NCBI RefSeq assembly: GCF_022606355.1
Contig: NZ_JAHHZQ010000005.1
Location: forward strand, 186,001-250,000
DNA length: 64,000 bases
Direction: 5' to 3'
Origin: Leifsonia shinshuensis
GTDB lineage: Bacteria > Actinomycetota > Actinomycetes > Actinomycetales > Microbacteriaceae
A model generated the notes under the pieces. The model had not been told where the DNA came from. It worked only from the letters and a program-made list of their open reading frames with translations, and ran no database searches. Shown piece after piece: positions 23,367 to 53,811 of the stretch (position 1 is the stretch's first letter; every line of letters begins with the position of its first letter). The position numbers were made by a program, and so were the translations under genes.

Positions 23367-23378
23367 CCTCCCGCGACA

Positions 23379-23507
23379 TTCGTCACGAATCACGACATTC
23401 GTGCCACGAATCACGACATTCGTCACGAATCCCGCGCCCCGGCAAAGATCGAGATTCGTCACGAATGTCGAGATTCGTGGCACGAAAAGTGACATTCGTG
23501 ACGAATC
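23379..23507. repeat. Two triplets of ATTCGT palindromes
   Basis: Six palindromes of the type ATTCGT-N-ACGAAT (13 bp) or ATTCGT-N3-ACGAAT (15 bp), centred at 23385, 23405, 23425 and at 23461, 23481, 23501, that is at exact 20-bp steps in each triplet. Order in each triplet is 13, 15, 13 bp. It lies between the convergent 3' ends of paaK and the TetR gene. Same family as 51566-52419. Confidence 0.85.
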
Positions 23508-43756: not shown

Positions 43757-43942
43757 TCGAACCGATCCGTCGTGCTCGCAGCTGGACCAGCGACATCGCC
43801 GGCCGGATGGCGGCCCTCGGCACCGTCGTGAACCTCACGAACCCCGAGCGCACGTCTCGGCGGAGGCCGGTGGCGGGTGTGTGGATTTCGTTAGAGAGGC
43901 GCCGCGGCAGCCGCCGGGCCTGTTAGATTCTTCTCGGCAGAA

Positions 43943-44100
43943 ACTTCGTTAGGTGAGGCTTCTGCACGAACACAGGCCACTGATCTGACGACGTCGAGAG
44001 ACGCCCAAGATCAGGACAGGTCTCCCCGGCTTAAGGGGTGATCCCAAGTGGCTTCCCCGGTGGGGACACGTCGTGCAGTGCCGAAGCTCTTACGTGGGAG
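43943..44100 (+). promoter_or_regulatory. M-box (ykoK-leader) magnesium riboswitch
   Basis: Matches to the M-box family can be read in order: CTTCGTTAGGTGAGGCT at the 5' end, the paired GATC...GATC arms around GTCGAGAGACGCC, GACAGG, CTTAAGG with GGTGAT, and near the 3' end GTGCAGTGCCGAAGCTCTTA followed by CG. These are the segments that fold round magnesium ions in the Bacillus mgtE riboswitch. A hairpin CCGACCGTGCGGTCGG at 44109-44124 follows without a T-run, so the switch more likely acts on Rho or translation than by intrinsic termination. It controls the leader ORF and the ABC genes. Confidence 0.85.
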
Positions 44101-44175
44101 TCCCGCCCCCGACCGTGCGGTCGGCGGCGGAACCTGGCGTGCGCCTGCCTGAATCCGCGAGGAGGTGACCCGCCG

Positions 44176-44314: not shown

Positions 44315-46051
44315 ATGCCTCTTCTCCGCACCGTTCCCGGCGCCGGCACGCTCCGTCGCGTCCGCTTCCGCTGGCTCGACGTGGTGGTGGCCGTCGCGAT
44401 CGTCGTGCTCTTCTACCTGGTGATCCAGGCGACCGCCGGGGCGACCGCTCCGCTGCGGCTCGCCGAGGTGCCCTCGTCCATCGACACCGATCCCGCGCTG
44501 CTGCCGTACTACGCGCTGCGATCGTTGCTGCGCATGTTCGCCGCGCTCGCCGCGTCGCTGCTGTTCACGTTCGTGGTCGCCACGGCCGCCGCCCGGCTGC
44601 CGCGCGCCGAGAAGGTGATCCTGCCCGCGCTCGACATCCTCCAGTCGGTGCCGATCCTGGGCTTCCTGTCGGTGACGGTGACCGGGTTCATCGCGCTCTT
44701 CCCCGGCTCGACGCTGGGGCTGGAGTCCGCTGCGATCTTCGCGATCTTCACCTCGCAGGTGTGGAACATGACGTTCTCGTTCTACGCGTCGCTGACCAGT
44801 CAGCCCCGCGACCTCGATGAGGCGGCCCGGCTGATGCGGCTGACCAAGTGGCAGCGGTTCTGGAGGCTCGACGTGCCCTCCGGGATGATTCCGCTGGTCT
44901 GGAACGGCATGATGAGCTTCGGCGGGGCCTGGTTCTTCCTGGCCGCCTCCGAGGCGATCACGGTCAACAACCACAGCTACGCCCTCCCCGGTGTCGGCGC
45001 GTACGTCGCCTCGGCGGTGCAGGCCGGGCAGCTCGACAGGGTCGGCTGGGCGATCCTCACCATGACGATCATGGTGCTGGGGGTGAACTTCCTGTTCTGG
45101 CGGCCGCTGGTCGCCTGGGCGGAGCGGTTCCGGCAGGAGGACACCGCGCCGACCGACCGGCCGCGCAGCGTCGTGCTCGACGTGATCAGCCGGTCGTGGC
45201 TGCCGCGCACCGTCGAGCGCGGGTTCCGGCCGATCGCGCGCGGGCTCGACAGGGCGACGCGCCCGTTCGGCTTGGCGGAGCACCCGCTCCGGGTGCCGGT
45301 GGTGCGCAAGCGCGCCCTCGACGTCGCGGTGACCGTCCTGGTGGTCGCCGCCATCCTGGTGGGAGCGGTCGCCGCCTACGTGTTCATCCAGCGTTCGGTC
45401 GGTCTCGGCGCCTTCGTGGAGGCGTTCGGGCTCGGCGCGATCACGATGGCGCGGGTCGTGGTGATCCTGCTGTTCGCGACGGTCGTCTGGGTGCCGATCG
45501 GCGTCTGGATCGGGATGAACCCGCGGATCAGCCGGCTGGCCCAGCCGATCGTGCAGTTGCTCGCCAGCTTCCCCGCCAACTTCCTGTTCCCGTTCGCGAT
45601 CGCGTTCTTCGTCGCTTCCGGTATCCCGCTGAACCTCGGCGGCATCCTGCTGATGGCGCTGGGCTCGCAGTGGTACATCCTGTTCAACGTGATCGCAGGG
45701 GCGAGCGCGATCCCGACCGACCTGCGGCAGGCGATGGACAGCTTCGGCGTCGGGAGGCTGCAGCGCTGGCGGCGGCTGATCCTCCCCGCGATCTTCCCGG
45801 CCTACGTCACCGGCGGCATCACCGCGGCTGGCGGCGCCTGGAACGCCTCCATCGTCGCCGAGGTCGTCACGTACAACCACCACACCTACACGGCGACCGG
45901 TCTCGGCGCCTACATCGCCGATGCCACCACGACCGGCGACATGGCCAAGGTGCTGGTCGGAGTGATCGTCATGTCCGTCTTCGTCGTCGGACTCAACCGC
46001 CTGTTCTGGCGCCGTCTCTACGCGGTCGCCGAGCGCCGCTTCAGCCTGTGA
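44315..46051 (+). CDS. Fused ABC transporter permease (two permease domains)
   Basis: A 578-residue protein, ATG at 44315 after GGGAGG. Two BPD_transp_1-type permease domains are joined in one chain: the first EAA loop is LDEAARLMRLTKWQRFWRLD near residue 170, the second LRQAMDSFGVGRLQRWRRLI near 470. Twelve helices in all. Each half resembles NitT/TauT-type permeases (nitrate, sulfonate), but no binding-protein gene is adjacent, and the gene is under an M-box. That favours a divalent cation or other magnesium-linked substrate. Confidence 0.8.
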   Translation: MPLLRTVPGAGTLRRVRFRWLDVVVAVAIVVLFYLVIQATAGATAPLRLAEVPSSIDTDPALLPYYALRSLLRMFAALAASLLFTFVVATAAARLPRAEKVILPALDILQSVPILGFLSVTVTGFIALFPGSTLGLESAAIFAIFTSQVWNMTFSFYASLTSQPRDLDEAARLMRLTKWQRFWRLDVPSGMIPLVWNGMMSFGGAWFFLAASEAITVNNHSYALPGVGAYVASAVQAGQLDRVGWAILTMTIMVLGVNFLFWRPLVAWAERFRQEDTAPTDRPRSVVLDVISRSWLPRTVERGFRPIARGLDRATRPFGLAEHPLRVPVVRKRALDVAVTVLVVAAILVGAVAAYVFIQRSVGLGAFVEAFGLGAITMARVVVILLFATVVWVPIGVWIGMNPRISRLAQPIVQLLASFPANFLFPFAIAFFVASGIPLNLGGILLMALGSQWYILFNVIAGASAIPTDLRQAMDSFGVGRLQRWRRLILPAIFPAYVTGGITAAGGAWNASIVAEVVTYNHHTYTATGLGAYIADATTTGDMAKVLVGVIVMSVFVVGLNRLFWRRLYAVAERRFSL

Positions 46052-50599: not shown

Positions 50600-51499
50600 A
50601 TGTCCCGCACCGACAGCACCACCCGACCCACCTCTCGCCTCACCGGTCACCTCGTGTCCTCCGAGGATGGCACGCCGATCGAGTACTTCAGCACAGGAAC
50701 CGGCCCCGGCCTCGTCGTGGTGCACGGCACGATGCAGTCGGCGGCCAGCCAGAGCGAACTGGCGGACGCCCTCTCCGACACGTTCACCGTGCACCTGATC
50801 AACCGCCGCGGACGCGGTCGCAGCGGCGCCTACCCGGCCCTGACCGACTACGACCCCGCCGCCGAGCTCGCCGACATCGAGGCGGTCGTGGCGGCCACCG
50901 GCGCGACGGCCGTGCTCGGCATCAGCTCGGGCGGCATCCTCGCCGCCGAGGTCGGCCTCCGTCACCCCGAGCTCGCGGTCGTGCTCTTCGAACCGGCCCT
51001 GGTCGCCGACAGGTCGCTCGACCTCGACGCCTTCCTGCGCCGCTTCGAGCCGGAGGCCGCCCGCGGCGACGTCCCCGCCTACATGGTCACCGCGCTGCTG
51101 GGGACGCAGATGGGGCCGGGCTTCCTGCGCTTCTTCCCGCGGCGGATGCTCGAGTCCAGCACGCGGAAGATGATCGCCAAGGATGCGGGAACCCTCCCGG
51201 TCGGTGGCGCCACGATGGCCGAGCTCGCGCGCGCGGTGCCGTACGACATGCGCATCGTCGCCGCCCACGCGGACCGCATCGAGGACTACCGGGCGCTGCG
51301 AGGGCCGGTCATCCTCGTCGGCGCGGCGAAGTCGCCCGCCTACCTGAAGCACGCCGTCGAGCGCCTCCACCAGCTGCTCCCCGGCGCCGCGACCGTCACG
51401 ATCGACGGCGTCGGCCACTCGGCAACCCAGAACGCCGCCGACGGCGGCAAGCCCACCGAGGTCGCCGCCGCACTCCGCGCCCACCTCGCCGCGCGCTGA
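50600..51499 (+). CDS. Alpha/beta hydrolase
   Basis: A 299-residue protein, ATG at 50600. VVVHGTMQSAASQSELADAL gives the oxyanion region and LGISSGGILAAEVG the nucleophile elbow; the late His is in DGVGHSATQ near the C-terminus. Single-domain hydrolase without signal peptide. MarR partner suggests induction by an aromatic or lipophilic compound, which it may hydrolyse. Substrate unknown. Confidence 0.8.
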   Translation: MSRTDSTTRPTSRLTGHLVSSEDGTPIEYFSTGTGPGLVVVHGTMQSAASQSELADALSDTFTVHLINRRGRGRSGAYPALTDYDPAAELADIEAVVAATGATAVLGISSGGILAAEVGLRHPELAVVLFEPALVADRSLDLDAFLRRFEPEAARGDVPAYMVTALLGTQMGPGFLRFFPRRMLESSTRKMIAKDAGTLPVGGATMAELARAVPYDMRIVAAHADRIEDYRALRGPVILVGAAKSPAYLKHAVERLHQLLPGAATVTIDGVGHSATQNAADGGKPTEVAAALRAHLAAR

Positions 51500-51565
51500 G
51501 CCACCGCGCTTGCCGCGCTGGCGGGCTGCCGCGCTGCGCCGCCTCGCGGCAACCTCCTCCCGAAG

Positions 51566-52419
51566 ATTCGTCACGAATCTCGCGATTCGTGCCACGAATC
51601 CTGACATTCGTCACGAATCCCGCGGCCCGCACCACGCATCGTTGCGCTGGCGACGAAGCTGCGTCGCAACATTCGTGACGAATCTCGCGATTCGTGCCAC
51701 GAATCCCGACATTCGTGACGAATCCCGCGGTCCGCTGTGTCGGGTCGACGCATTCGTCACGAATCTCGCGATTCGTGGCACGAATCCCCGCATTCGTCAC
51801 GAATCTCGCGATTCGTGGCACGAATCCCCGCATTCGTGACGAATCTCGCGACTCGCACCACGCGTCTTCGCCCCGGCGACGAATCTGCGTCGCCACATTC
51901 GTGACGAATCCCGCGATTCGTGGCACGAATCCCGACATTCGTGACGAATCTCAAGTCTGCTCCTTCGGGCCGCCCTGTTCGTGACGAGTTCGCGACTCGC
52001 GCCACGCGTCGTTATCCTGGCGACGAAGCTGCGCTGTCGCATTCGTGACGAATGCCGTGATTCGTGGCACGAATCCCGACATTCGTCACGAATCCCGAGT
52101 CTGCAGCCTCGGGTCGCCGCATCCGCGACGTCCGCGACTCGCACCACCGTCGTCGCCCAGCCGACGAAGTTGCGTCGCCACATTCGTGACGAATGCCGTG
52201 ATTCGTGCCACGAACCCCGACATTCGTGACGAATCTCGCGGTCCGCGCCACGTGTCGTCGCCCCGGCGACGAAGCTGCGTCGCAACATTCGTGACGAATG
52301 CCGTGATTCGTGCCACGAATCCCCACATTCGTCACGAATCTCGTGTCTCGCAGCGCCGGTCGGGACATTCGTGACGAATCCCGCGATTCGTGTCACGAAT
52401 GCGGGCATTCGTCACGAAT
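51566..52419. repeat. Array of 26 ATTCGT palindromes on a 20-bp grid
   Basis: Palindromes ATTCGT-N-ACGAAT (13 bp) and ATTCGT-N3-ACGAAT (15 bp) alternate. Centres: 51572, 51592, 51612; 51677, 51697, 51717; 51758, 51778, 51798, 51818, 51838; 51903, 51923, 51943; 52047, 52067, 52087; 52188, 52208, 52228; 52293, 52313, 52333; 52373, 52393, 52413. Steps within a group are always 20. The gaps between groups hold decayed copies near grid positions (for example 51632, 51858, 51983) and a related filler with GGCGACGAAG. No gene is supported in 51500-52485. It ends 67 bases before the protease start. Confidence 0.9.
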
Positions 52420-52485
52420 GTCCGGCGCGTGCGCCGTGGGCGAACGCGCGGCAGCGCCGGGGCGCGGGAGGCGCACACTCGTCTC

Positions 52486-53409
52486 ATGACGGATGCGGGA
52501 GCCCTGGACGCCTACTCGGCCGTGGTGGTGCGGGTCGCCGCCACCGTCGGACCGGCCGTCGCCGCCGTGACCGCGCGGACCTCCCGCGGCGTCGGCCTCG
52601 GCAGCGCCACGGTCGTGTCGGTTGACGGCCACCTCCTGACCAGCGCGCACGTGGTGGAGGGCGCGACCCAGGTCGATCTTGCGTTCGGCGACGGCACCCG
52701 GGTGCGCGCGCATGTCGTCGGGAGGGATCCACTCTCCGACCTCGCCGTCCTGCAGGCCGACGCGCCGACCCCGGCGCCGGTCGAGCTGGGGGACGCCTCC
52801 GCGCTCCAGGTCGGCCAGCTGGTCGTCGCCGTCGGCAACCCGCTGGGCCTCGCGGGAAGCGTGACCGCCGGCATCGTCTCGGCACTCGGCCGCTCGCTGC
52901 CGACGCGGGCCGGCCGCGTTGTCGACGAAGTCATCCAGACCGACGCGGCCCTGAATCCGGGCAACAGCGGGGGCGCGCTGGCGGACAGCTCTGCCCGCAT
53001 GGTCGGTGTGAACACCGCTGTCGCCGGAACCGGCCTCGGGCTGGCTGTTCCTGTCAACGCGACCAGCCGGCAGATCTTGGACACGCTGATGCGGGAGGGC
53101 CGTGTGCGCCGGGGCTGGCTGGGTATCGCGGGCGCCGAGATCGCGCTCCAGGAGGCCGTCGCCCGCAAGGCAGGGGCCCGCACCGGTATCCAGGTGATGT
53201 CGGTGGTGGCGGACAGCCCTGCCGACCTCGCCGGCATCCGTCCCGGCGACGTGCTCATCTCGCTCGACCGGACGCCCATCCACGTCGTCGCCGACCTCCA
53301 GCGCCTGATGATCGCGAGCACCATCGGCCGCCGCCTCGAACTCACCGTGTGGCGCAACGGCGCCCTCGTCGACGCCGTCGTGGAGCCGACCGAGCTCGCG
53401 GAGGCGTGA
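52486..53409 (+). CDS. Trypsin-like serine protease with PDZ domain (DegP/HtrA type)
   Basis: A 307-residue protein, ATG at 52486. Catalytic triad visible: His in LLTSAHVVEG (near residue 49), Asp in DPLSDLAVLQ, Ser in NPGNSGGALADS. A PDZ domain from about 205 on (GWLGIAGAEIALQEAVARKA, then SPADLAGIRPGDVLISLDRT). No signal peptide or membrane anchor is visible, unlike usual HtrA proteins, so it may be cytoplasmic or the start is further upstream inside the repeat array. It degrades or sequesters misfolded proteins. Confidence 0.85.
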   Translation: MTDAGALDAYSAVVVRVAATVGPAVAAVTARTSRGVGLGSATVVSVDGHLLTSAHVVEGATQVDLAFGDGTRVRAHVVGRDPLSDLAVLQADAPTPAPVELGDASALQVGQLVVAVGNPLGLAGSVTAGIVSALGRSLPTRAGRVVDEVIQTDAALNPGNSGGALADSSARMVGVNTAVAGTGLGLAVPVNATSRQILDTLMREGRVRRGWLGIAGAEIALQEAVARKAGARTGIQVMSVVADSPADLAGIRPGDVLISLDRTPIHVVADLQRLMIASTIGRRLELTVWRNGALVDAVVEPTELAEA

Positions 53410-53430
53410 GCCCCCGGGAGATTTGCGCCG

Positions 53431-53463
53431 AATGTGGCGTTCGGCGGGTCCGAACGCCACATT
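53431..53463. terminator. Hairpin after protease gene
   Basis: AATGTGGCGTTCGG (53431-53444) is exactly complementary to 53450-53463 with a 5-base loop, 21 bases after the protease stop. Flanked on both sides by ATTTGC-type sequences that extend the symmetry. Probable terminator, or another short repeat family. Confidence 0.65.
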
Positions 53464-53514
53464 TGCCGCAAATGCGCGACGGGTAGGCTGGCGGGACGAC
53501 CAGAAGGAGCCGCC

Positions 53515-53811
53515 GTGTCCGACCCGATCAGCACCGACCAGCAGCAGGCGATCCTCGGCGCCGAGGTCGCCAGGTACGTCTCCGACGGCTGGGCGGCGGA
53601 GTCCGTGGTCGGCGTGACGGCGACCCTCACCAAGAACAAGCGGATCGGCTGGTTCTGGAACACCATCCTGACTCTGCTCACCGCCGGCCTCTGGCTCATC
53701 GTCGTCATCTACCGCGTGGTGAATCGCAAGCGGTACACGATCGTGCTCACCGTCGACCCGTACGGACGCGTCCGCCGTTCCGACCGCGGCGGAGCCCGGA
53801 CGTCACGGTAG
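53515..53811 (+). CDS. Small membrane protein, hypothetical
   Basis: A 98-residue protein, GTG at 53515 after GAAGGAG. One strong helix (FWNTILTLLTAGLWLIVVIY) at about 49-68 preceded by KNKRIGW, then a basic tail (RVVNRKRYTIVLTVDPYGRV). The N-terminal 35 residues look soluble. Similar small proteins with a W-x-L-T-x-G-x-W helix are frequent in Actinobacteria; role unknown. Confidence 0.65.
   Translation: MSDPISTDQQQAILGAEVARYVSDGWAAESVVGVTATLTKNKRIGWFWNTILTLLTAGLWLIVVIYRVVNRKRYTIVLTVDPYGRVRRSDRGGARTSR

Follow-up and report, generated by a model that had tools for sequence, protein, structure and literature searches.

A palindrome array in Leifsonia shinshuensis and its relation to a dispersed element at gene 3' ends

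The question raised by positions 51566-52419 of the window (the whole stretch of Leifsonia shinshuensis DNA analysed here, 64,000 nucleotides in length) is why so many copies of one short palindrome should stand in regular steps between two genes, and what, if anything, might read them. An earlier note had counted 26 copies of ATTCGT-N1/3-ACGAAT in this array. Twenty-five are exact (13 bp long in 17 cases, 15 bp in 8), and the 26th, at 52201, counts only with one mismatch. Neither the 13-mer nor the 15-mer arose in 100 dinucleotide-preserving shuffles of the window, which itself holds 21 copies of the 13-mer and nine of the 15-mer. Among the loci read, some of which overlap so that copies are counted twice, G or C is the middle base in 282 of the 283 13-mers, and the 15-mer has a G[GC]C centre in 142 of 143. 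The array and the genes on either side of it are laid out as follows:

50600..51499, + strand, alpha/beta hydrolase gene, upstream of the array
51566..51618, element 1 (palindromes of 13/15/13 bp at 20-bp steps)
51671..51723, element 2
51752..51804, element 3 (its last 13-mer is common with element 4, giving a quintet)
51792..51844, element 4
51897..51949, element 5
52041..52093, element 6
52182..52234, element 7 (its middle box, 52201, has one mismatch)
52287..52339, element 8
52327..52379, pair of 13-mers 40 bp apart that bridges elements 8 and 9, with a degenerate middle box (31.7 bits, A/T profile)
52367..52419, element 9
52486..53409, + strand, trypsin-like protease gene with a PDZ domain, downstream of the array

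Inside the groups the 20-bp step is exact throughout, as the earlier note had stated, and 13- and 15-bp units alternate; relatives use steps of 20 or 40 bp. The steps between groups (65, 41, 65, 104, 101, 65 and 40 bp) agree with the gaps of about 40, 65 and 101-104 bp reported before, and some degenerate boxes do lie close to the grid, at 51851, 51977 and 51995. The strict periodicity claimed for the array does not extend across groups: when box centres are taken over the whole array, the vector strength is 0.09 for a period of 10 bp and 0.14 for one of 10.5 bp, so that neither gives a common phase, though it reaches 0.71 for 10.25 bp. Tandem repeats with longer units, of 144 and 105 bp, can also be read in the array, as duplication of an element together with its spacer would give.

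The palindrome is dispersed well beyond this locus. A search of the genome and its relatives, as the earlier note had suggested, returned 193 exact sites in the genome of L. shinshuensis itself, compared with none for a reversed control, together with a smaller array in strain TF02-11 and one element in a MAG. Within the window, a further cluster (23378-23506) and a related element with different letters had been missed at the first reading:

23378..23430, first-family element, 11 bp behind the stop codon of an AMP-binding enzyme gene that is convergent with a TetR gene
23454..23506, second element of the 23.4-kb cluster, with an imperfect middle box
53421..53473, second-family element (ATTTGC.. 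letters) with boxes at a 40-bp step, 11 bp past the end of the trypsin/PDZ protease gene

The recurring unit consists of three palindromes of 13, 15 and 13 bp, 20 bp apart, and is about 57 bp in total (53-57 bp). Its consensus is A-S, 13-mer, STCGAS, 15-mer, STCGAS, 13-mer, S-T (where S is G or C), based on 94 copies from four genomes, each without another triplet start within 110 bp; some of these "isolated" elements nevertheless belong to widely spaced arrays. The palindrome letters are perfect in 58 of the 94 copies and carry one mismatch in 33 more, a degree of perfection that is overstated because the copies were drawn from loci chosen for the motif. No conserved flanks were seen around the element across the 94 aligned copies. 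A CRISPR array, which would show identical repeats and unique spacers at one or a few loci, does not fit palindromes that are dispersed genome-wide and an array that reads as longer tandem units.

Among relatives, the doublet was found in 4 of 99 genomes, all of them Leifsonia: the present genome, TF02-11, Leaf336 and a MAG. The exact 13-mer is present in 21 of 28 Leifsonia genomes, at 1 to 456 copies (the sole copy in genome G006 lies inside a called gene), and is absent from the other seven. Elsewhere in the family, 21 of 293 sampled genomes have exactly one copy each and never more. Of 299 genomes sampled, 5, again all Leifsonia, have pairs of 13-mers separated by 27 bp (a step of 40 bp); G015 has 324 of these pairs and L. 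shinshuensis has 70. Steps of 25, 35, 65 and 75 also occur in relatives between boxes of neighbouring units. The 456 copies of the 13-mer belong to G015, where arrays run at 40-bp steps and one of them enters a stretch of Ns (L177, L244). G017 has an array (L178) built on the box ATTCGTGCTGAAT, partly at 40-bp steps, which is a further letter variant.

The array locus was read in 16 genomes by way of the protease gene. TF02-11 has 15 sites there, with 10 boxes arranged as 40-bp pairs and 66-bp steps between them, and the MAG has a single element. In the remaining 13 genomes, 12 have no box and one has one box; none of the 13 has a full-length hydrolase match upstream of the protease gene within the stretch read. 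Leaf336 carries an element behind the hydrolase gene, with the protease gene about 4 kb away. As a single element in the MAG and a smaller array in TF02-11 lie at the same locus, the array of 25 sites is better read as local growth of one clade-shared element than as the single long array in decay that had been proposed earlier. One further locus was located in the 28 genomes by its flanks, independently of the motif. Three of the four genomes of the clade (L. shinshuensis included) have the element there, and seven other species have their own version at the same place: in G020, G024, G027, G015 and G017 the boxes are 40 bp apart with a different middle, and in G021 and G014 there are 13-mers at 20-bp steps. 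No element was seen at this locus in the rest of the 28 genomes.

The placement of the element with respect to genes is strongly biased. The starting set was 131 clusters, less 16 that have only one site and 13 that overlap a called gene or stand at the edge of a locus. The two called neighbours of each of the 102 multi-site clusters left are convergent in 66 cases, co-directional in 33 and divergent in three. These counts rest on a home-made gene caller, draw on several genomes and treat orthologous clusters of different species separately. In an element-free 186 kb of the L. shinshuensis genome, by comparison, 17 of 104 gaps are convergent and 22 divergent; measured by intergenic bases, the convergent share of the same 186 kb is 34% and the divergent share 30%. 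Where a gene ends next to the cluster (99 cases), its stop codon lies a median of 14 bp away, and in 78 cases no further than 30 bp. This placement bears directly on the idea that the array is a local set of operators for a regulator of adjacent genes. The palindromes are of operator size, a TetR gene stands beside the 23.4-kb cluster and a MarR gene is near the array, but numerous loci in a range of species have the element behind a gene, and it is so seldom found between divergent genes that we consider this explanation very improbable; it was rejected on account of the dispersal of the element.

Orthologous copies were compared to determine which parts of the element are retained. From 133 pairs with both flanks matched, 15 were kept by hand after removal of within-genome pairs and of pairs from array loci (L041, L069, L071, L082, L084, L125, the window, L056/L121 and L066/L088), the latter because their flanks are themselves repeats. 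In these 15 pairs, which come from loci chosen for the motif and are partly dependent (three derive from one trio), boxes differ at 13 of 585 positions and linkers at 44 of 180, while palindrome centres differ at 14 of 45 through exchange of G and C. Adding L066/L088 gives 13 of 624 for boxes and 52 of 192 for linkers, and the difference rates over all 133 pairs are 2.6% (boxes), 45% (centres) and 36% (linkers). Between orthologues, therefore, the boxes vary far less than the linkers. The frequent G-to-C and C-to-G flips of the centres (L017/L023/L086 and other pairs) resemble what hairpin-mediated inversion during replication might produce.

These comparisons also bear on the possibility that the element is a non-autonomous mobile palindromic repeat (MITE- or REP-like), with box letters that serve as a transposase target, which is tolerated at gene 3' ends and has no host function. 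Such a repeat would fit a 13-mer copy number that ranges from 0 to 456 across species, box and middle variants that are specific to lineages (with two box families within one genome), unconserved flanks and local arrays. We nevertheless regard it as rather unlikely for four reasons. First, elements at orthologous places are common to two to four of the four species compared. Second, old copies free of selection would not be expected to differ so much less in their boxes than in their linkers. Third, no match to the Y1 (RAYT) transposase domain PF01797 was found in any of 28 Leifsonia genomes, while 5 of 14 control genomes were positive; REP/RAYT mobility was rejected on this basis. Fourth, the exact paired-box pattern is not found in viral contigs and the array has no match in plasmid or phage records, and an origin from a phage or plasmid was rejected accordingly. 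Candidate empty sites, among the matches listed, came from diverged relatives only and are too diverged for a target duplication to be read. None of 79 clusters from relatives mapped to the element-free stretches of the L. shinshuensis genome that were examined.

What the lineages hold in common becomes clearer when A and T are set against G and C. In 55 elements from G024, G022, G002, G020 and G027, picked by their outer boxes, the 27-bp middle has A/T at positions 7-9 and 19-21 (0.91-1.00) and is mostly G/C elsewhere, except at positions 2 and 26 (0.78 and 0.75). The letters of these middle triplets vary (AAA, TTT, AAT, TAT), and the mirror complementarity of the 55 middles equals that of shuffles (6.56 versus 6.66 of 13). 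The six A/T triplets of an element share one helical face (vector strength 0.94 at 10 bp and 0.84 at 10.5 bp). In G009 and G014 (14 elements) the middle triplets lie one base further in, which gives a 10-bp step throughout, and in G015 they are weak.

A profile that distinguishes only A/T from G/C, and is neutral within the boxes, gave 56 matches in the loci of L. shinshuensis, which had been chosen for holding first-family elements, and none in block shuffles. Thirteen of the 56 lack the usual first box; of the 12 listed among these, 10 belong to the second family and two are decayed members of the first. The second-family element at 53421-53473, which the profile likewise detects, is a near-perfect palindrome, ATTTGCGCCGAAT ... 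ATTTGCCGCAAAT, and its box, ATTTGCSGCAAAT, has 23 copies in the L. shinshuensis genome, several at 40-bp steps. In G019, from which the exact box is absent, the profile found five elements at two loci in 200 kb, a region chosen around a known second-family box. It gave no match, whatever the letters, over 200 kb of G013 and over 100 kb from each of four other genera, and it missed all elements of the G009 type because of the one-base shift of their middle triplets. Lineages vary in box letters and middle, but the 40-bp box step keeps recurring, as does the roughly 10-bp phase of the six A/T triplets. Some Leifsonia species can do without the element, given the seven genomes without an exact 13-mer, the sole G006 copy inside a gene and the result for G013.

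Placement just behind stop codons, chiefly between convergent genes, is also what would be expected of an RNA hairpin that acts as a bidirectional transcription terminator or as a stabiliser of mRNA 3' ends. Folded as RNA, single elements reach -30 to -41 kcal/mol (z-scores of -4.6 to -7.6), and all six tested are strong. Selection for pairing, however, should make the halves of one element a better match than halves drawn from two elements. Folding energy shows no such advantage: in three classes, 55, 29 and 27 of 60 re-pairings were at least as good as the natural pairing. Mirror complementarity in two classes does not exceed that of re-paired halves, and in the second family it is slightly higher (19.84 versus 19.05, sd 0.49), a weak hint of pairing. 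Linker and centre complementarity equals that of shuffles in the 94 copies, and in all 188 triplet elements, arrays included, it is below shuffles (2.59 versus 3.10 of 6; centres, 70 versus 94.7). The middle A/T triplets are retained without pairing, and a hairpin would need neither invariant letters nor a 20-bp spacing. No terminator with a T-run was found in 51000-53600. We therefore think a hairpin function improbable, and a single long hairpin under selection is unsupported. A search of Rfam at gathering scores for known RNA families matched only an M-box (magnesium) riboswitch at 43938-44106 (143.5 bits), upstream of a gene at 44315 whose translation resembles an ABC permease.

There is, in sum, no sign of selection for pairing of the halves, and because natural halves match no better than re-paired ones, selection seems likely to act on DNA sites instead. 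The presence of G or C at the S positions, together with the free letters of the triplets, is what a readout of the DNA through its minor groove or shape would predict. The earlier note had expected cooperative protein binding rather than a CRISPR or simple terminators. On the evidence, double-stranded DNA recognised on one face by a putative protein is more likely than an RNA hairpin or a CRISPR. A terminator role is made less likely by the missing T-run at the array, although the elements fold strongly and occupy terminator-like positions.

Intrinsic bidirectional terminators form hairpins at gene ends. The Leifsonia element is similar to them in position and in its stable hairpin (six of six elements), but differs in having no T-run at the array and no signal of compensating changes, apart from the weak hint in the second family. 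The element also resembles the REP/BIME repeats of E. coli and Pseudomonas, described in PMC3733652 as short, palindromic, high-copy and intergenic, mostly behind genes or between convergent genes, often grouped and falling into species-specific families. The Leifsonia element is likewise short, palindromic, multi-copy, intergenic and biased toward 3' ends. REP super-families are defined there as GTAG and CGTC; an unpaired end tag of either kind is missing from the profile of the 94 Leifsonia elements, in which CGTC is found only inside the palindrome. Unlike REP/BIME, the element combines three palindromes, each exactly 20 bp from the next, with A/T triplets in phase; its halves show no sign of having been selected to pair, and its host genus is actinobacterial. 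The main text of PMC3733652 mentions neither Actinobacteria nor Leifsonia by name. As the REP tags are missing and a Y1 transposase was not found, we do not file the element under REP/BIME and describe it as a new variant of intergenic palindromic repeat.

No description of the element was found in the open-access papers searched. The main text of a 2008 study of Leifsonia xyli insertion sequences (PMC2516522) lacks the words palindrome and MITE. Of five literal matches to the motif string listed, that in PMC11423575 is to primer tails, and those in PMC7155257, PMC3735576, PMC6048176 and PMC7953158 look unrelated, judging by title.

Our preferred explanation, held with about even confidence and based on sequence comparison, is that in this array a dispersed, REP/BIME-like 3'-end element of Leifsonia has been amplified in tandem, and that the element is read by a candidate wrapping or bending protein. 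A symmetric protein would recognise the element as double-stranded DNA and would bend or wrap the dyad over about five helical turns, with the A/T minor grooves on one side. The element might then form a boundary from one gene to the next, for instance by dealing with supercoils that gather behind transcribed genes, and arrays would be locally strengthened sites. The reader could be a nucleoid protein or DNA gyrase. Gyrase is a candidate because the E. coli enzyme prefers a phased 10-bp variation in G/C, read as bendability, and binds BIME-2 (PMC6379681). It gathers downstream of transcribed operons, but it does so in 2-5 kb regions well behind terminators and in a manner that is not hard-wired in sequence (PMC6379681), which speaks against a simple gyrase-station reading. 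The gyrase motif, according to a preprint (PMC12393610), spans 130 bp, with two 47-bp phased arms around a 36-bp centre. The Leifsonia element has phased 10-bp G/C variation over 53 bp only, and its length of 53-57 bp, its strict palindromes and its position directly behind genes set it apart.

More tentatively, the elements may be genus-specific DNA-wrapping stations at gene ends, in which triplet phase and dyad are inherited while the letters turn over jointly in each lineage, as if tracking changes in a putative binding protein. The weak middle triplets of G015, the one-base shift in G009 and the slight excess of mirror complementarity in the second family count against the preferred explanation, as do the Leifsonia genomes from which the exact 13-mer is absent. 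With species that hold hundreds, few or none of the exact boxes, the genus offers a natural experiment, already replicated, on the function of intergenic palindromic repeats, and comparing its sequences helps to tell a code in DNA shape from an RNA hairpin. Should a wrapping protein bind them, these elements would mark the way in which a bacterium manages supercoiling between convergent genes.
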